Positions 11,955 to 21,404 of a stretch of DNA of 64,000 bases are shown piece by piece. The stretch lies in contig NZ_KK853997.1 of assembly GCF_000696185.1 (NCBI RefSeq), positions 7,399,431 to 7,463,430 on the forward strand. The letters run 5' to 3'. Position 1 is the first letter of the stretch. Every line of letters begins with the position of its first letter. Under the pieces are notes generated by a model, which saw only the letters and a program-made list of their open reading frames with translations, searched no databases and was not told the origin of the DNA. The position numbers and the translations under genes were made by a program. The DNA comes from Kitasatospora cheerisanensis KCTC 2395. GTDB taxonomy: Bacteria > Actinomycetota > Actinomycetes > Streptomycetales > Streptomycetaceae.

Positions 11955-12332
11955 TCACCACAGGGCGCTCGCGACGGCCGCGCCCGCGAAGGAGAGGGCG
12001 GTGCCGAGGAGGACACTGACCGCCAGGTACAGGCCGGAGAGGGCGATCCGGCGGGTGGAGGCGAGGGTGAAGACCTCGTAGGAGAAGGTCGACCAGGTGG
12101 AGAGGGCGCCGCAGAAGCCGGTGGCGAGGAACAGTTCGGGGCGGGGGCCGAGATGGCCGCGGAGGACCGCCTCGGAGAGGAAGCCGAGCAGCAGGCAGGC
12201 GGCGGCGTTCGCGGTGAGCGTGCCGAACGGGAACGGGCTGTGCACCCGGGACTTGACGGCGACTCCGGTGAGGTAGCGGGCCGGCGCGCCGATCAGGCCG
12301 CCGGCCAGGACGAGCAGCCAGTCAGTGAGCAC
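11955..12332 (-). CDS. crcB: CrcB-type fluoride channel subunit
   Basis: A 125-residue membrane protein with four hydrophobic helices, the size of a Fluc/CrcB protomer. Diagnostic pieces are GGLIGAPARYL in helix 1, TLTANAAACLLLGFL in helix 2 (the conserved Asn) and TGFCGALSTWSTFSYEV in helix 3 (the fluoride-lining Phe/Ser/Thr run). It exports fluoride as a dimer of two antiparallel protomers. The GTG start at 12332 lies inside the end of the upstream crcB gene (11-nt overlap), so both halves of a likely heterodimer are co-translated. It converges on the vWA gene across 29 bases. Confidence 0.9.
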   Translation of the reverse strand: MLTDWLLVLAGGLIGAPARYLTGVAVKSRVHSPFPFGTLTANAAACLLLGFLSEAVLRGHLGPRPELFLATGFCGALSTWSTFSYEVFTLASTRRIALSGLYLAVSVLLGTALSFAGAAVASALW

Positions 12333-12819
12333 CGGCGGCCTCCTGGTGGGCGGGGACGCCGACGACCGCGCGGGCCGCGAACACGCCGAGGGTGACGCCC
12401 GCCAGCGCGGCCAGCACGGTGACCAGCAGGTAGACGACCGCGGTGCCCGGGGCGTCGCCGCGCACCAGCACCCGGATGTTGTCGGTGTAGTGGGAGAAGG
12501 TGGTGAACCCGCCGAGGAAGCCGGTGCCGAGCAGGGCGCCGACGAGCCGCTTCGCGGCGGGGAAGCGGTCCGCCAGCACCGTGAGCAGCGCACCCATGGC
12601 CAGGCATCCCGTCGCGTTGACGAGCAGGATCGGCCACGGGAACTCCGTGCCGGAGGTCGGCCAGAGCCGCTCGATCCCGTAGCGCGCCGCCGCGCCGAAC
12701 GCGCCGCCCACCGCGACCGCCAGGACCACCGGGTACTGCCGGCCCGGGGCGTGCTCGGAGTGGGCGTGGCCGGGCGGGCGGACCGGCCGGTCCGCCGTGC
12801 CGAAGTACGGGTTGGTCAT
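12322..12819 (-). CDS. crcB: CrcB-type fluoride channel subunit, with hydrophilic N-terminus
   Basis: A 165-residue protein. The first 28 residues are hydrophilic (PYFGTADRPVRPPGHAHSEH). They are followed by four helices with the CrcB signatures VAVGGAFGAAARYGIE, ILLVNATGCLAMGALL and GTGFLGGFTTFSHYTDNI. Paired crcB genes with overlapping frames normally form heterodimeric fluoride channels with each subunit in opposite orientation. The ATG at 12819 is preceded by GGGAGC-like purines. I looked for a fluoride riboswitch (crcB motif) in the leader and did not recognise one. Confidence 0.9.
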   Translation of the reverse strand: MTNPYFGTADRPVRPPGHAHSEHAPGRQYPVVLAVAVGGAFGAAARYGIERLWPTSGTEFPWPILLVNATGCLAMGALLTVLADRFPAAKRLVGALLGTGFLGGFTTFSHYTDNIRVLVRGDAPGTAVVYLLVTVLAALAGVTLGVFAARAVVGVPAHQEAAGAH

Positions 12820-12999
12820 CGGGAGCGCGCCCTTCCTCGGGATCGGGGGTGTCGGCCGTACAGGCGAACCTCGGTGACCACCGGCTGCTGCGGTGCACGC
12901 ACAGACAGGTGGCCGGGCTAAACATGACTGCCGGACAGTTCCGGTGCAGAGCACCGTATTCCAGGAATCTCGCCCTTCCGGTGGCATTCAGGAGAAAAC
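12820..12999. promoter_or_regulatory. Divergent promoter region between crcB and the urea transporter
   Basis: 180 bases without a gene. It holds two small symmetric elements: CGGTGC-AGA-GCACCG at 12942-12956 and the palindrome ATTCC-A-GGAAT at 12958-12968. AGGAG at about 12990 precedes the GTG of the transporter. The palindromes are candidate operators for nitrogen or nickel control of the urea genes. I could not fit a convincing GlnR box. Confidence 0.35.
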
Positions 13000-13980
13000 G
13001 TGACACGAAGTGCCCCCGATGGCCCCCGGCCGGGCCCCGGGCCGACCTGGGACCGGGAGCCGCTGGCCTACCTGGTGGCCTCGCTGCGCGGCGTCGGGCA
13101 GGTCGACCTGCAGCCGCAACTGCTCACCGGCGCGCTCATCCTGGCCGGGCTCTGGGCGGCCGGCTGGAAGGTGGGCCTCTTCGCCTCCCTCGGCACCCTG
13201 ATCTCCACCGCCGCCGCCTACGCCTTCGGTGTCGACCGCGGGTCCATCTCCCAGGGCCTGCAAGGGTATTCGGGCTGCCTGACCGGCATCGCGCTGGTGA
13301 CGTTCCTCGGCCACCACCCCGCCACCTACATCCTCACCGTGGTCGGGTGCGTGGTCTGCACCGTCCTCACCGCCGCCCTCGCCGTGCTGGCCCGGCCGTA
13401 CGGGCTGACGCCGCTCACCGCGCCGTTCTGCCTCGTCTCCGGAGTGATGGTGCTCGGCGCGCCGTCCTTCGCCCGGATCTGGCACGGCGCGCCCCCGCCG
13501 GCGACCGATCCGACCGTGGGCGACACCGGCATCACGTTCTCCGACCTGTGGCACGCCTTCTTCACCAACGTCTCGCAGGTCTTCCTGGTGAACAGCTGGT
13601 ACGTCGGCCTGATCATGCTGGCCGGCCTGGCCTGCGCGGGCGTGCGGGTGCTGCTCGCCGCGGCGCTCGGAAGCATCGCCGGGATCGTCGCCGCCTGGGC
13701 GCTCGGCGCGCCCACCGAGCAGATCGCCAACGGCATCTACGGCTACAACGCGGTCCTCGTCGCCATCGCGGTCGGCGCGGTCTTCCTCGCCAACACCCCC
13801 TGGAACGCGGGCTACGCGCTGTTCGGCGCCGCCCTGTCCACCGGCCTGACCGCCGCGATCACCTCGCTCTTCAAACCCTTCCACGGCCACACCTTCACCT
13901 GGCCGTTCATCCTCAGCACCTGGGCGCTGATGGCAGCCGTGCCCCTGCTGCCCAGACTCCGCCCCGCCCCGGCGGGCTGA
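13000..13980 (+). CDS. Urea transporter (UT family)
   Basis: A 326-residue integral membrane protein with about ten hydrophobic segments in two similar halves. Family marks include the GLQGYSGCLTGIAL segment with its paired later block NGIYGYNAVLVAIAVG, which form the two urea-selectivity elements of UT channels, and TPWNAGYALFGAALSTGLT near the end. It should conduct urea into the cell for the urease encoded just downstream. The GTG start follows CAGGAG. About 120 bases separate it from ureA, and the genes are probably one operon. Confidence 0.85.
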   Translation: MTRSAPDGPRPGPGPTWDREPLAYLVASLRGVGQVDLQPQLLTGALILAGLWAAGWKVGLFASLGTLISTAAAYAFGVDRGSISQGLQGYSGCLTGIALVTFLGHHPATYILTVVGCVVCTVLTAALAVLARPYGLTPLTAPFCLVSGVMVLGAPSFARIWHGAPPPATDPTVGDTGITFSDLWHAFFTNVSQVFLVNSWYVGLIMLAGLACAGVRVLLAAALGSIAGIVAAWALGAPTEQIANGIYGYNAVLVAIAVGAVFLANTPWNAGYALFGAALSTGLTAAITSLFKPFHGHTFTWPFILSTWALMAAVPLLPRLRPAPAG

Positions 13981-14101: not shown

Positions 14102-14406
14102 ATGAACCTCGCCCCCGTGAGCTCGACAAGCTCGTCGTCTACGTGGTCGCGGACCTGGCCCGCAAGCGCCAGGGCCGCGGTCTCAAGCTGAACTACAGCG
14201 AAGCGGTCGCCCTGATCACCGAGGCGATCCTGGAGGCCGCCCGGGACGGCAGGTCGGTCGCCGACTGCATGGAACTCGGCCGGCACGTCCTCGGCCCGGA
14301 CGCCTGCATGGACGGGGTGCGGCAGATGCTGCCGCTGCTCCAGGTCGAGGCCTCCTTCGTGGACGGCACCAAGCTGGTCTCGGTGCACGACCCCATCGGG
14401 GGCTGA
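14102..14406 (+). CDS. ureA: Urease gamma subunit (single-base frameshift near the start)
   Basis: Restoring one missing C in the run at 14112-14116 gives a complete 101-residue UreA beginning [20 protein letters not shown] and continuing [20 protein letters not shown], the hallmark LKLNYPEAVALI block. [20 protein letters not shown] and DPI close the subunit. Without the correction only an internal start at 14143 is available, which would lack the first helix. The gamma subunit packs against alpha in the urease heterotrimer. The ATG at 14102 has GAGGAAGG about 10 bases before it. The stop is three bases before the next gene. Confidence 0.85.
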
Positions 14407-14409
14407 CCC

Positions 14410-15320
14410 GTGCCCGACCGCATCCGGGTGCTCGCCGTCTGCGGCCACGAAGCCGCCGGCGGCACCGCCCTCCAGCACCTCGCCGGCCCCGGCACCGCGG
14501 TGGTCGGCGCCGGCCGCGAACTGTACCGGGCACTCGCCTCCGGGCCGGCCCGGCAGGGCGTCGCCGTCGTCCCGATGACGCTGGGCCGCGACCCCGAACT
14601 CGTCGCGGACACCGCCCGGACCGTCCGCGCCCTGCCACCCGAGCTGCGCGACGGCGTCGCCGTCGCCGCGCCCTTCGGCACCCCCGACCACCTGGTCGGC
14701 TGGCTGCGGGCCGCCGCCACCACCGTGCCCGCCGACGCCGCACTGCTGCTCGCCGCGCCCGGCGCCGACCCGTACCAGGACGCCGAACTGTTCCGGGTCG
14801 CCCACCTGGTGCAGCGCCACGGCCGGCACCGGCTGGTGGAGACCGCGCTGCTCGCCGGCGATCTCGACCCCGCCGAGGGCGTGCGGCGCTGCGCGCTGCT
14901 CGGGGCGCGCCGGGTCGCGGTGCTGTCCGCATCCTTCGTGCGACCCGCGCGGCCCACGGCTCCTGACGGCGTGTCGGTCACGGACGCCGGGCCGCTGCTC
15001 GGCCCCGCCGCGCTGGCCGCCGTGCTGTCCGCCCGGGCCGCCGCCGCCGTGCAGCGGCTGCGCGAGCACCGGGACGACGGGGTCGGACGCGCGCTGGCCG
15101 CCGCCGAAGGACACGGCCGACCCACACCCACGGGCCCGGCGAGCACGGCCACGCGCACGACCACGGCGAGCACGGCCACGCGCACGACCACGGCGAGCAC
15201 GGCCACGCGCACGGGCCCGGCGTGGGCTCCCACGACCACTCCCCGCAGGCGCAGCAGCACACCCCCTCGTCCCCGGATGCCCGTCCCCTCGCGGCGACGG
15301 GCGCAAGGAGCCACCAGTGA
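14410..15320 (+). CDS. CbiX/SirB-like chelatase with a histidine-rich tail (one frameshift)
   Basis: Residues 1-235 resemble the CbiX/SirB chelatase superfamily: [18 protein letters not shown] at the start, [17 protein letters not shown] and an internally repeated Rossmann-like layout. Read as is, the frame runs wrongly over the ureB start. If one base is missing between 15111 and 15137, the frame becomes a tail of repeated EHGHAHDHG units with about 17 histidines and ends at a TGA (15318-15320) overlapping the ureB GTG. That matching stop strongly supports the corrected frame (about 303 residues). Such a tail suits nickel binding for urease maturation. The nickel role is inferred, since no UreE is seen. 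GTG start. Confidence 0.72.
15141..15215 (+). repeat. 27-bp tandem repeat coding for EHGHAHDHG
   Basis: Two identical 27-bp units (15141-15167 and 15168-15194) and a third partial unit encode the histidine-rich segment of the chelatase tail. In-frame expansion by slippage could change the number of metal-binding histidines. The same unit length as the repeat at 2732 is coincidental; the sequences differ. Confidence 0.8.
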
Positions 15321-15790
15321 CATTCGGCAAGTACCTGTACGGCGATGGACAGATCGAGATCAACGCGGGCCGACGGACCGTCAAGGTCGAGGTGGTGAAC
15401 ACCGGCGACCGGGCGGTGCAGGTCGGGTCGCACTACCACTTCTTCGAGGTCAACCCGGCGCTGCGGTTCGACCGCGACAAGACCCTCGGCATGCACCTGA
15501 ACATCCCGGCCGGCACCTCGGTGCGGATCGAGCCGGGCGGCACCCGCGAGGTCGAGCTGTGCGAGTACGGCGGCACCGGCCGGCTGGTCGGCTTCAGCGG
15601 CCTGCTGAACGGCTCCACCGTCTCGCACCCCGCCCGGCTGGAGGCGTTCCACCGCGCGCTCGAACTGGGCTTCCAGGGCGCCCAGGAGCAGCAGGGCACA
15701 CCGAAGAACCCCGCGAAGCCGAAGAACCCCGCGGGCCCGAAGAACCCTGCGAAGCCGAAGAACCCCGAGAAGAAGAAGGGCGCCCGCTGA
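15317..15790 (+). CDS. ureB: Urease beta subunit with Lys/Pro/Asn-repeat tail
   Basis: Residues 1-105 are a normal urease beta subunit: [20 protein letters not shown], the [17 protein letters not shown] block and a later [20 protein letters not shown]. The protein is 157 residues, roughly 50 longer than usual. The tail is built from short repeats of [13 protein letters not shown] type and ends KKKGAR. It is basic and probably disordered. The GTG start overlaps the corrected chelatase stop, and the stop overlaps the ureC ATG (TGATG). The tail could bind nucleic acid, a partner or the cell surface; nothing in the sequence decides. Confidence 0.92.
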
Positions 15791-17514
15791 TGCCGATCCT
15801 GTCCCGCCAGCAGTACACCGACATGTTCGGGCCGACGGTCGGCGACCGCTTCCAACTCGCCGACACCAACCTGGTCGTGGAGGTGGAGAAGGACTTCAGC
15901 GAGGGCCTGTACGGCGACGAGGTGGTGTACGGCGGCGGCAAGTCGATGCGCGACGGCATGGGCTCGGATCCGCAGGCCACCGCCGCCCAGGGCGCGCTGG
16001 ACACCGTGATCACCAACGTGGTGGTGATCGACCCGATCCTCGGCATCGTCAAGTGCGACATCGGCATCAAGGACGGCTTCATCGCGGCGATCGGCAAGTC
16101 CGGCAACCCGCAGACCCAGAACAACGTGCACCCGAACCTGGTGGTGGGGCCCGGCACCGAGGCGATCTCGGGGGAGCACCTGATCGCCACCGCGGGGGCG
16201 ATCGACACCCACGTCCACCTGATCTCGCCGCAGCAGGCGCAGCAGGCGCTGACCAACGGCATCACCACCCTGATCGGCGGCGGCACCGGCCCGGCGGACG
16301 GCACGAACGGCACCACCTGCACCCCGGGCCCGTTCAACATCGCGCGGTTCCTTCAGGCCTGCGAGGAGGTGCCGGTCAACATCGGCATCATGGGCAAGGG
16401 CAACGGCAGCCTGCCCGGCGCGCTCGACGAGCAACTCGCTGCCGGAGCCTGCGCGTTGAAGGTCCACGAGGACTGGGGCGCGACCCCGGCGGTGATCGAC
16501 AACGCGTTGAGCGTCGCGGACCGGCACGACGTGCAGGTGGCGATCCACACCGACAGCCTGAACGAGTCCGGCTTCTTCGAGGACACCCGTTCGGCCATCG
16601 ACGGGCGCACCATCCACACCTTCCACTCCGAGGGCGCGGGCGGCGGGCACGCCCCCGACATCCTGCGGGTCACCGGCGAGCCCAACATCCTGCCGTCCTC
16701 CACCAACCCGACGCTGCCGTACACCAAGAACTCGGTGGACGAACTGCTCGACATGGTGATGGTCTGTCACCACCTGAACCACGACATCCCGGAGGACGTG
16801 TCCTTCGCCGACAGCCGGGTCCGGGCCGAGACCATCGCCGCCGAGTCGGTGCTGCACGACCTCGGCGTGATCAGCATGTTCTCCTCCGACTCGCAGGCGA
16901 TGGGCCGGGTCGGCGAGTCCGTCACCCGCTGCTTCCAGACCGCGCACCACTGCAAGGACAAGCGCGGACCGCTCGACGGCGACAGCGCCCGCAACGACAA
17001 CCAGCGGGTGCTGCGCTACCTGGCCAAGGTCACCATCAACCCGGCCATCGCGACCGGCATCTCGGACTACGTGGGCTCGCTGGAGCCGGGCAAGCTGGCC
17101 GACATCGTGCTCTGGCCGATCCACTCCTTCGCCGCCAAGCCCAAGATGATCATCAAGGGCGGGATCATCTCCTGGGCGCAGATGGGCGACCCGAACGCCT
17201 CCCTGCCCACCCCGCAGCCGGTGATCTACCGTCCGATGTTCGGCCAGTTCGGCCGGGCCCAGCAGGCCACCCACGTCACCTTCATGTCGCAGGCCGGGAT
17301 CGCCGCCGGCGTCCCCGAGGAACTCGGCCTGCACCGCAGGGTGCTGCCGGTGCGCGGCACCCGCGTCATCGGCAAGCACAACATGGTCCGCAACAACGCC
17401 CTGCCGGAGGTCGCCGTCGACCCGGAGACCTTCAAGGTCACCCTGGACGGCGAGGCCGCCACCATCGAACCTGCCGCCTCGCTGCCGCTCAACCACCTGT
17501 ACTTCGTGGTGTAG
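15790..17514 (+). CDS. ureC: Urease alpha (catalytic) subunit
   Basis: A full-length 574-residue UreC with all nickel-site elements: the DTHVHLI histidines, the lysine in [13 protein letters not shown] that becomes carbamylated and bridges the two nickels, [12 protein letters not shown], the [13 protein letters not shown] loop and the flap region [13 protein letters not shown], where one of the histidines is catalytic. [12 protein letters not shown] follows. It hydrolyses urea to ammonia and carbamate in the cytoplasm. The frame is intact with no shift. It sits in ureA-chelatase-ureB-ureC-ureF-ureG-ureD order, unlike the common ureABCFGD in carrying the chelatase. Confidence 0.97.
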
Positions 17515-17517
17515 CGG

Positions 17518-18264
17518 ATGATCCCCGCCCCGGACCGGAACCCGGACGGCACCGAGCAGTTCCCCGAGCAGCCGCTCGGGGGACTGCCCGCGCTGCTGGC
17601 CGGCCTGCAACTCGCCGACTCCGCCTTCCCGAGCGGCTTCTACACCCTCTCGCACAGCCTGGAGGGCTACGCGCAGGCCCGCGCCGTCACCCCCGACACG
17701 CTCGCCGCGCTGCTCGCCGACCTGCTCCGGCACGCCGTCGGACCGGGCGACGCCACCGCGCTGGCACTCGCCCACCGGGCGGCGGCCGCAGGCGAGTTGA
17801 CGGTCGCCGCCCGGGTCGACCGGCGACTGCACGCGGGCAAGCTGAGCCGCGAGATGCGGCAGGCGGCCACCCGCACCGGCCGCCAACTGCTGGACCTGGC
17901 CGCCGAGGTCTTCCGGGAACCCGGGATCGCCGACTACCTGCGGCTGGTGAAGGACCGTCAGGCCCCGGGCTGCCAGGCCGTCGCCGCCGGGGTGGTGTAC
18001 GCCGCCGCCGGCGTCCCCGCCGCCCACGCGGTGGCCGCCGACCTGTTCGCGTTCAGCGCCAGCTTCGCCGGCGCCGCCCTGCGCCTGCGGCTCACCGACC
18101 ACCGCCGGGCCCAGGTGCTGCTGCACGGCGCCGCCCCCGTCATCGAGGAGACCGTACGGGCCGCGCTGCGCCGCGAGACGGCCGACCTCGGCTCCACCGC
18201 CTTCGCGTCGGACATCATGTCCGGCCGTCACGAGCGGGCCGAGGCCCGCCTGTTCGCCAGCTGA
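17518..18264 (+). CDS. ureF: Urease accessory protein UreF
   Basis: A 248-residue all-alpha protein. The UreF core is recognisable in [25 protein letters not shown] near the N-terminus, and in [20 protein letters not shown] and later [14 protein letters not shown]. UreF binds UreD and UreG and controls GTP-dependent delivery of nickel to UreC. It starts with ATG three bases after the ureC stop. No frame problems. Confidence 0.92.
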
Positions 18265-18290: not shown

Positions 18291-18911
18291 GTGGACGACA
18301 ACGTACTGCGGATCGGCATCGGCGGCCCGGTCGGCTCCGGCAAGACCGCGCTGATCGAGGCGCTGGTGCCGGTGCTGATCGCCCGGGGCCACCGGCCCGC
18401 CGTGATCACCAACGACATCTACACCCAGGAGGACGCCGAACACGTCCGCCGCACCCTGGCCGGCGTCCTCGCCCCCGAGCTGGTGGTCGGCGTGGAGACC
18501 GGGGCCTGCCCGCACACCGCCGTCCGCGACGACCCGACGATGAACCTGGCGGCCGGCGCCGAACTGCTGGAGCGCTTCCCCGAGGTCGACACCCTGCTCT
18601 ACGAATCCGGCGGCGACAACCTCACCCTGACCTTCAGCCCCGCCCTGGTCGACGTCTTCGTGTTCGTCCTCGACACCGCGGAGGGGGAGAAGATGCCCCG
18701 CAAGCGCGGCCCCGGCATCACCGAGTCCGACCTGCTGGTCATCAACAAGATCGACATCGCGCAGTACGTCCGCACCGACATCGGCGTGATGGAGTCCGAC
18801 GCGCACAAGGTCCGCGACGGCAAGCCCGTCATCCTCACCAACTCGCTGGACGGCACCGGCATCGAGGACCTCGCCGCGTTCCTGGGCGGCCGCCGCAAGG
18901 CGCTGATCTGA
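18291..18911 (+). CDS. ureG: Urease accessory GTPase UreG
   Basis: A 206-residue SIMIBI-class GTPase. The P-loop is [16 protein letters not shown], the nickel-binding CPH motif appears in [29 protein letters not shown] is the Walker B-like block and [13 protein letters not shown] carries the guanine-specificity NKxD. UreG dimerises around nickel and delivers it through UreF/UreD. The GTG start at 18291 follows GAGGGAG. It lies 26 bases after ureF and one base before ureD. The frame is intact. Confidence 0.95.
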
Positions 18912-18912
18912 C

Positions 18913-19954
18913 ATGACCTCCGCCCCGCCGCGGCCGACCGTGACCACCGACCCGCCCGACCCGTCCGACCGGGAGCCGGGCCGCGCGTTCCCCGACCCGT
19001 CCTCCGAGCACCGCCGGCCCGCGGCCGACCGCCTCGACCCGGCGCACTGGCGGCCCGGCCGCCTCCCCGCCGAGGTGTCGGGCTGGCCGCGCGCCCCGAC
19101 ACCCTGCCCCCGGGCTCGCCCGCCAAGGTCGGCATCCTCGACCTGGCCTTCGAACTGCGCGGCGGCCGCACCGAACTCGTCGAGCGCTACCAGAAGACCC
19201 CGCTGCAGATCATGCGCCCGCTGCGGCTCGACCCCGACCGTCCCGGCGACGCCTACGTCTTCCTGATGGCCACCGGCGGCGGCGTCACCCAGGCCGACCG
19301 CTACCGGATCGACGCGCGCTGCGGCCCCGACACCCGGGTCCACCTCACCACCCAGGCCGCCACCAAGGTCTTCCGGATGGAACAGGACTACGCGAGCCAA
19401 CGCGTCCACCTGACCGCCGAACGCGGCGCGTACCTCGAGTACCTGCCCGACCCGCTGATCCCGTTCCGCGACGCCCGCTACTACCAGCACACCACCGTCA
19501 CCGTCGCCTCCGGCGGCACCGTCGTCCTCGGCGAGACCCTCACCGCCGGGCGGCTCGCCCGCGGCGAGCGGCACGACTACCGGGTGGTCGCCACCGACCT
19601 GGAGATCACCCGCCCCGACGGCGCCCTGCTCGCCGTCGACACCCAGCGGCTGGTCACCGGCGGCGACCGACGCACCGTCACCGGCCCGCCGTGTTCGCCG
19701 GACACGACCACGTCGCCACGCTGTTCGTGGTCAGCGACCTCCGCCCCGCCGGCGAGATCGCCGACACCCTGCACCGCGCCCTCGACGGGCTGGGCCCCGA
19801 CTACGGCGTCTCCACCCTCCCCGAGGAGTCCGGCGCCTGGCTGCGCCTGCTGGAGGACAGCCCGACCCGCACCGCGGCCGCCCTCGACACCGCCTGGCGG
19901 GCCGTCCGCCTGCTGCTCACCGGCACGCCCGCGCCGGCTCTGCGCAAGACCTGA
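18913..19954 (+). CDS. ureD: Urease accessory protein UreD (two single-base frameshifts)
   Basis: The reading frame changes twice, each time consistent with one missing base in a C/G run: near 19093-19098 (restoring APDTLPPGSPAKVGILDLAF) and near 19686-19691 (restoring VFAGHDHVATLFVVSDLRP). The corrected product is about 347 residues with UreD marks such as RTELVERYQKTPLQIMRPL, TQAATKVFRMEQDYASQRVH and EYLPDPLIPFRDARYYQ. UreD (UreH) is the scaffold linking UreF-UreG to apo-urease. It starts with ATG one base after the ureG stop. The product is complete, so a sequencing cause is likelier than decay. Confidence 0.85.
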
Positions 19955-20059: not shown

Positions 20060-21404
20060 ATGCTCTCCGCGCCCCGCCGATGCCCCGGCCTACAACGCCG
20101 GCGACACGGCCTGGCTGCTCGCCTCCACCGCCATGGTCCTGCTGATGACGCCCGGGCTGGCGTTCTTCTACGGAGGCATGGTCCGGCTCAAGCACATCCT
20201 GATGATGCTGAAGATGAGCTTCGCCGCGCTCGCCTTCGGCAGCCTCGTCTGGTGGGCGCTCGGCTACACCCTCGCCTTCGGGCCGGACGTCGGCGGGGCC
20301 GGCCTGATCGGCAACGTCGACCGGGCGTTCTTCCGCGGCATCCAGCTCAACACCCTCACCGGTGCCATCCCCACCTACATCTTCGCCACCTTCCAGATGG
20401 GCTTCGCGATCGTCACCGTCGCCCTGATCAGCGGCTCCGTCGCCGACCGGGCCCGGATGCGCGGCTGGCTGGTGTTCGTCCCGCTCTGGCTGCTGCTGGT
20501 CTACGCGCCCGCCGCGCACTGGGTGTTCGCGCCGGACGGCTGGATCCACGACAAGCTCGGTGCGCTCGACTTCGCCGGCGGCCTGCCCGTCGAACTCAAC
20601 TCCGGCGCCGCCGGACTGGCCGTCGCCGTCGCCCTGCGCGGCCCCCGCGACTGGGCCCGGCGGGAGGAACGGCCCAACAACATCCCGCTGGTGGTGATCG
20701 GCGTCGGGCTGCTCTGGTTCGGCTGGTTCGGCTTCAACTCCGGCTCGGCGCTCAACGACCAGGGCACCGCCGCCGCGGCCTTCCTCAACACCCAGCTCGG
20801 GGGCGCCGCCGCGATGGTCACCTGGCCGCTGGTCGAGAAGTGGCGCACCGGGCGGGTCAGCACCACCGGCGTGGTCTCCGCGGGCGTGGCCGGCATGGTC
20901 GCCATCACCCCCGCCTGCGGCGAGATCAACCCGCTCGGCGCGGTGATCACGGGCCTGGTGGCCGGACTCGTCTGCGCCTTCGCCGTCACCCTCAAGTACC
21001 GCTTCGGCGTGGACGACACCCTCGACGTGGTCGGCGTGCACGGCGTCGGCGGCATCACCGGCCTGATCATGGTCGGCCTGTTCGCCACCGCCCGGATCAG
21101 CGGCCGCGAGGGCCTGTTCTACGGCGGCGGCTGGAGCCTGCTCGGCAAGCAGGTGCTCGCCGTGCTCGCCATGGCCGCGTTCTCCTTCCTGGTCACCTGG
21201 CTGCTCGCCAAGCTCGTCCACGCGGCCGTGGGCTTCCGGGCCGAGGCCGCGTACGCGCACGTCCCCGGCGGCGAGGCCGAGACCGCCTACGACACCCTCA
21301 CCGCCGAACGCCTCACCACCCTCGCCGCCGAGGGCGCCGCCCGCAGCGACACCGAACTCGTCCACCGCATCGCCGAGCTGCTCCGCGCCCGCCGCCAGGA
21401 CTGA
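20060..21404 (+). CDS. amtB: Ammonium transporter of the Amt family
   Basis: A polytopic membrane protein with about eleven helices. Amt signatures: PAYNAGDTAWLLASTAMVLL at the start, LAFFYGGMVRLKHILMMLKM, FGWFGFNSGSALNDQGTAAA and DDTLDVVGVHGVGGITGLIM with the pore histidines. It exchanges ammonium/ammonia with the outside, a logical partner of urease. The start is uncertain. ATG 20060, with GAGGAA about 7 bases before it, needs a one-base insertion near 20072-20075 to reach the transporter frame. The in-frame GTG at 20043 needs no correction but has a poor binding site. No glnK/glnD follow, unlike the usual Streptomyces amtB-glnK-glnD operon. Confidence 0.88.

Follow-up and report, generated by a model that had tools for sequence, protein, structure and literature searches.

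What does a gene with the look of a metal chelatase do inside a urease operon? We address this question for a gene, here called X, that lies between ureA and ureB in a 64,000-nucleotide stretch of the Kitasatospora cheerisanensis KCTC 2395 genome (contig NZ_KK853997.1), which we analysed as a whole and refer to as the window. In the limited and partly accessible literature that we searched, we found no description of a chelatase-like gene in a urease operon. For the nickel supply of actinomycete ureases that lack UreE, X is a conserved candidate in one lineage, and it shows how a tetrapyrrole chelatase could turn into a metallochaperone.

Gene X and its reading frame

As the original prediction had it, a chelatase-like frame sits inside the urease operon of the window, and restoring one base turns it into a single continuous gene (Table 1) for a protein of roughly 300 residues. 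X starts at GTG 14410, three bases past the ureA stop (14404–14406), and stays open in one frame to about position 15114. Its ending, with EHGHAHDHG repeats and 17 His, is read in the next frame, and the corrected stop (TGA 15318–15320) does overlap the ureB start (GTG 15317), by four bases.

The frame break is present in the sequence as deposited. When aligned with the relatives L035, L037 and L059, the window is one base short of all three at 15117–15122, and it is likewise one base short of them in ureA (14113–14117), twice in ureD (19085–19087 and 19683–19685) and at two places at the start (20072–20087) of a gene that we take to be amt, that is, ammonium-transporter-like. X is intact in the relatives, where it runs through the same type of His-rich tail. 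Because single-base losses also occur in ureA, ureD and amt, and because the relatives carry whole copies, the break in X is almost surely an assembly error rather than biology, and the losses in these genes together point to systematic assembly errors in this genome. A programmed frameshift in X was considered and rejected, as the neighbouring genes are broken likewise and the relatives are whole.

Table 1. Features of gene X and of the urease operon around it (positions in the window).
Feature	Position	Strand	Basis or remark
UT, taken to be a urea-transporter-like gene	13000..13980	+	ORF; heads the order UT-A-X-B-C-F-G-D in 66 of 88 X-bearing ureC loci
ureA, frame broken near start	14102..14406	+	one base short against three relatives at 14113–14117
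gene X, predicted chelatase-fold protein with His-rich tail	14410..15320	+	between ureA and ureB; frame broken at 15117–15122
X core, 235 residues, predicted two-lobed class II chelatase fold	14410..15114	+	AlphaFold2 model, SirB 5zt8 match
codons of His13 and Glu14 (GHE motif)	14446..14451	+	His13 aligns with His10 of B. subtilis SirB
codon of Glu63, at the place of the second catalytic His (His76 of SirB)	14596..14598	+	alignment
X His-rich tail, 17 His, second frame	15114..15317	+	same type of tail in relatives
ureB	15317..15790	+	ORF; matched across relatives
ureC, X-bearing clade (type II)	15790..17514	+	ORF; tree
ureF	17518..18264	+	ORF
ureG, short N-terminus without His (MDDNVLR)	18291..18911	+	
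ureD, two single-base losses	18913..19954	+	ORF; alignment with relatives

Distribution and gene order of X

Taking an E value below 1e-28 as a clear X in 150 genomes of the family, we found one in 31 of them, and urease genes adjoin X in 27 of 29 loci (L006–L034), the exceptions being two loci of the Embleya kind (L023 and L029). A profile scan of genome contigs yielded at least 79 loci among the best 80 of 86 matches, and at least 72 clear relatives (L035–L106); the matches listed include relatives in Streptomyces, Kitasatospora, Streptacidiphilus, Catenulispora, Streptosporangium, Nonomuraea, Actinomadura, Antrihabitans and others. In a class-wide sample of 394 genomes, five carry a strong X (E below 1e-60), each about 1 kb from a UreC match. 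The remaining 50 of the 55 matching class genomes have only weak matches to the X profile (E about 1e-6 to 1e-14, mostly in the second lobe), which we take as ordinary CbiX-type proteins on the basis of the gap in E values.

Gene order was scored on eight gene types only. From a set of 198 loci, 22 were dropped, 11 of them without ureC and 11 with a ureC identical to that of another row (the X state was equal within each such pair), and 88 distinct X-bearing ureC loci were scored. X lies directly before ureB in all 88, counting these eight gene types, and the order ureA-X-ureB-ureC occurs in 85. The full arrangement UT-A-X-B-C-F-G-D accounts for 66 loci and A-X-B-C-F-G-D for 15; among the rest, three have ureA and ureC apart, two have UT moved and two are cut short. 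Where ureA and ureC stand apart, in three Actinomadura genomes (L095, L098 and L103), X still keeps company with ureB, ureF, ureG and ureD. The ureA-chelatase-ureB order and the tail (below), for which the original prediction had proposed a search in other actinomycetes, thus do recur there, and the predicted dedication of the gene to urease is supported.

To place these loci among ureases, we use 'type II' as our own name for the UreC clade of X-bearing operons. In the UreC tree, 65 X-bearing rows fall on one side of a branch with support 100, against 37 others. In the family sample, type II UreC are 71% or more identical to the UreC of the window, and the next UreC is at 59%. X matched in 30 of 36 type II loci of a first family sample; among the six without a match, a contig end truncates one, and in the other five the ureB match comes 66 to 183 bases after that of ureA. 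In a larger family sample, 59 of 394 genomes together contain 66 type II ureC loci, and the 30 loci that it added comprise 24 with X, four without and two at contig ends (one with a partial X). Combined by hand, the 66 loci divide into 54 with X, nine without and three cut by contig ends; as L035–L106 were collected through X itself, rates of X among type II ureases are valid from the family samples only. X was found in none of the 76 fetched ureC loci of other types.

Two loci without X, L184 and L188, are nested among X-bearing rows of the tree. X has thus been lost in some lineages, and the two nested losses show that it is not indispensable. X also evolves faster than ureC, with dN/dS of about 0.42 vs 0.12 (window against L035).

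Some copies depart from the common arrangement. In L083, which lies on the same contig as L032, X and ureB share one open frame with no stop between them, perhaps a true fusion or another frame error. Copies in Embleya and Catenulispora (L080, L085, L096 and L190) stand alone, away from urease genes. A further relative, L192 (NZ_CP108509.1 1403336–1403896; 60% identity over 79% of the query), is located on a 1.6 Mb linear plasmid of Streptomyces sp. NBC_01237, in whose record no annotated genes lie beneath the X match.

A predicted chelatase fold with a degenerate metal site

The original prediction likened X to CbiX and SirB, and the likeness holds. An AlphaFold2 model of the X core, built from an alignment of 69 rows, has a mean pLDDT of 94.8 and a pTM of 0.90. 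Its best Foldseek matches are CbiK, FetB, SirB and ferrochelatase, and its fold matches include CbiX 4ccs; VIA-align superposes it on SirB 5zt8 with Z 14.4 and an rmsd of 4.8 over 222 residues, and CfbA structures match the second lobe (residues 109–213, Z about 12). The Foldseek match is moderate, with TM about 0.44–0.59 among chelatases and eight matches at E up to 0.001, and absence of a family from these lists is no exclusion of it. At the sequence level, Pfam CbiX finds 18 of 22 aligned members with E values of at most 1, the best being 4.2e-7, and leaves the window protein unmatched, an hhalign comparison of the X profile with individual CbiX-type proteins encoded in the same genome returns probabilities of 33% and 0.2%, and PDB sequence searches with X found no chelatase. 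Given the model, kinship with chelatases is better settled by the fold search together with a joint MAFFT alignment than by hhalign.

Cited articles are drawn on here and below from the portions accessible to us. In these, the metal site of SirB consists of His10, Glu43 and His76 (PMC11301274), and large class II chelatases carry their catalytic pair in one lobe (PMC7689651). X retains the first element of this site, His13 in 67 of 69 aligned members and the adjacent Glu14 in all 69. The second catalytic His is absent: none of the 69 members has His at that place, which is taken by Gly, Glu, Arg, Lys, Asp, Ala, Thr or Val. Moreover, the place of SirB Arg134 is Ala in 69 of 69, and no catalytic pair is visible in the second lobe of X in the joint alignment. 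The core as such is conserved, with 19 invariant columns in the 69 rows and dN/dS below 1.

X is therefore, by predicted fold, kin to the chelatases with the active site that defines them broken and, since the second catalytic His is gone in 69 of 69 members, it is probably not a working chelatase. This corrects the original prediction, which had likened X to enzymes that insert Co, Fe or Ni into tetrapyrroles. X shares with SirB and CbiX-L the two-lobed fold across the core and the GH motif at the first catalytic His, and with CbiX-L also a His-rich C-terminal region (PMC7689651, in part); it differs from them in the lost second His, in having GHE for GHG and in being encoded within a urease operon. 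CfbA, the nickel chelatase of F430 synthesis, is likewise comparable in its class II fold and in handling nickel, the metal proposed for X, whereas it is a homodimer whose subunits have two His each and which acts on a tetrapyrrole (PMC11301274, in part).

The His-rich tail goes with urease

We counted a tail as His-rich if the part past residue 185 holds at least five His within some 30 residues. Such a tail is present in 92 of 93 urease-linked X copies, a count that omits the row of the window (shifted frame) and L106 (too short); the one copy without it, L048, is truncated where its contig ends. Across all 94 rows read, the median is 11 His, and tails differ in length and repeat unit. With 92 of 93 urease-linked copies His-rich, the ending of X is not chance and, as a sequence feature, it is indeed of the type that holds nickel in other proteins. 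In copies away from urease, the three readable tails contain one, three and four His. The tail thus goes with urease and not with the core, the unlinked copies being few.

UreE is rare and His-rich UreG alternates with X

In the class sample, urease (UreC) was found in 178 of 394 genomes and UreE_C in five, the latter a lower bound from a family search in which one row, G338, lies below the family cut-off; two further UreE genes (G405 and G413) turned up in fetched stretches and had been missed by that search. X had been proposed to replace an absent UreE. The absence stands, in that UreE_C has no match in the Kitasatospora genome, but it is by itself no pointer to X, because UreE is rare class-wide. 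We thus rejected the missing UreE as an argument for X, UreE being scarce across the whole class and X occurring in 0 of the 76 loci of other types.

Nor does X resemble UreE itself: among 22 members, Pfam gives no match to a UreE family with E up to 1, and none in NCBIfam matches the window protein. Two NCBIfam UreE models each match one of the 22 members weakly (E 0.041 and 0.15), perhaps owing to the His tails. By analogy the two proteins are alike in being encoded in urease operons, in their His-rich C-terminal tail (not universal in UreE) and in being likely nickel donors; they are unlike in sequence family, those two weak matches apart.

A different comparison is offered by UreG. In plants and fungi, its His-rich N-terminus is held to substitute for UreE, and the accessible part of the same source states that such an N-terminus is not known from bacterial UreG (PMC10100864). 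Among our loci, many actinobacterial UreG proteins from operons lacking UreE begin with a His-rich extension (for example L144, L145, L159, L160, L167, L186 and L187). The UreG of X-bearing operons begins six to eight residues ahead of the P-loop strand in the rows printed. The shared element would be a His tract standing in for a missing UreE, as described for plants and fungi (PMC10100864, in part), with the difference that in X operons UreG is short and the tract belongs to another protein.

We compared operons using predicted UreG starts and taking three or more His as a His-rich N-terminus. By the most upstream ATG, a rule that overstates extensions by reading upstream letters, UreG is His-rich in 2 of 88 X-bearing operons, in 7 of 9 type II operons without X, in 0 of 3 type II operons whose X state is cut by a contig end, in 0 of 6 UreE-bearing operons and in 34 of 61 operons lacking both UreE and X (nine of 70 had no ureG in the fetched stretch and were excluded). 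By the nearest start codon, which understates extensions that contain an internal start codon, the corresponding counts are 0 of 88, 4 of 9, 0 of 3, 0 of 6 and 28 of 61. The two X-bearing cases (L049 and L064) we take as non-coding upstream letters. Three X-less rows whose state depends on the rule (L218, L220 and L221) have the extension MHDP...HHH common to the other X-less rows with His-rich UreG.

As the tree groups the seven X-less operons whose UreG is His-rich into one clade (support 97; it includes one row of contig-cut X state), the exchange inside type II may be one switch, possibly a single event. The two nested losses are of another kind: L184 and L188 have a short UreG and no X, and nothing visible in the operon makes up for the loss. 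Such His-rich frames as occur nearby appear to be ureC and the transporter gene read in the wrong frame, and the L184 genome has a contamination rating of 10%. Nor does every operon need a His tract, since 27 of the 61 that lack both UreE and X are without a His-rich UreG under the upstream-ATG rule, too. As judged from these sequences, the exchange with the His-rich UreG N-terminus is nevertheless a better argument for a UreE-like role of X than the missing UreE, though one made up of few independent events.

A candidate nickel store and donor for UreG

Taken together, we regard it as likely that X, derived from a chelatase and probably without catalytic activity, stores nickel and donates it to UreG, and so fills the role of UreE as a different protein. 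What speaks for this is the predicted fold, the loss of the second His, the retention of the first with an invariant Glu beside it, the tail, the fixed place before ureB and the pattern of exchange with UreG. X would descend from a class II metal chelatase of the CbiX/SirB type that became a urease accessory protein. Its tail would collect and store nickel, and the degenerate core may hold nickel near His13, dock on UreG or on the UreFD-apourease complex, or both. Nickel would then pass from X to a UreG that lacks a His-rich N-terminus of its own, followed by insertion through UreG, UreF and UreD. Which metal X carries, to which partner and in which direction it is handed over are what we infer in this scheme. 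In function X would resemble UreE, or the His-rich N-terminus found on UreG of plants, fungi and other actinobacteria, and be homologous to neither. Besides that N-terminus, precedents are the His-rich tail of Klebsiella UreE, where most of the nickel on that protein is bound (PMC7055735, in part), and the His-rich region of CbiX-L, for which metal storage and delivery have been proposed (PMC7689651, in part).

A wider proposition, which we hold to be evenly balanced between right and wrong, is that this constitutes a separate nickel route, in which a class II chelatase was stripped of its catalytic pair, gained a His tail and was locked into the operon of one actinobacterial urease lineage as nickel donor to a UreG without a His tract, the His tract being a module that moves between UreE, UreG and X.

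The donor reading has evidence against it, and part of this favours an X that merely buffers nickel. The tail of Klebsiella UreE is dispensable for urease activation (PMC7055735, in part), which counts against a donor role of X; together with the large share of nickel bound there, this would suit a buffer or detoxification sink, co-expressed with urease, whose tail soaks up nickel without delivery to UreG; that X can be lost fits such a sink as well. The strict place in the operon, the linkage to ureFGD, kept also in loci whose ureABC are separated or missing, the exchange with the His-rich UreG N-terminus and a core whose invariant columns indicate that more than the tail is kept all argue in the other direction, and we consider a sink unlikely. 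Also counting against the donor reading are the single clade behind the exchange inside type II, the 27 operons that have none of UreE, X and a His-rich UreG, the loss of X in L184 and L188, its faster evolution than ureC, the moderate fold match and the lack of an excess of nickel-response boxes. Using what we take to be the Nur-like motif, we found no enrichment of such boxes upstream (8 of 68, vs 21 of 61 in a control stretch inside ureC).

If X instead served the assembly or stability of UreA-UreB-UreC or of UreF-UreD, with the His tail for another purpose such as pH sensing or zinc, its place before ureB in every one of the 88 loci would be natural, and sequence cannot tell which metal a His tail binds; the exchange with the N-terminus of UreG, a nickel-handling GTPase, makes this improbable. 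Still less probable is an active chelatase inserting nickel, cobalt or iron into a tetrapyrrole, its operon place reflecting nickel supply only. The class II fold over the entire core, the retained first His and the His-rich region known on CbiX-L (PMC7689651, in part) are what such an enzyme would have, and the missing second His and the Ala at the Arg134 place, both in 69 of 69 members, are what it would not. Furthermore, two CbiX-domain proteins with both His motifs are encoded elsewhere in the Kitasatospora genome, and urease requires no tetrapyrrole. Finally, we give hardly any credence to a tail that is a neutral repeat expansion in a GC-rich genome, with X as a hitch-hiker: its variable length and repeat unit and the faster evolution of X would agree with this, whereas an in-frame His-rich tail in 92 of 93 urease-linked copies (the window's own omitted) from several families, the weak tails of copies away from urease and a core dN/dS below 1 would not.

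For the nickel store and donor that we favour, natural controls are at hand in the sister operons that lost X and in those that carry the His tract on UreG.

Additional observations at the loci

At L058 (8895–14871, Streptomyces sp. A 4/2), UT, X, ureF, ureG and ureD stand in a row with a gene that is presumably ammonium-transporter-like, and no ureABC were found within 10 kb of X. In the window, two overlapping small membrane-protein-like frames on the minus strand (11955–12987) lie before the urea transporter gene; we take this pair to resemble a paired fluoride channel (CrcB/Fluc).
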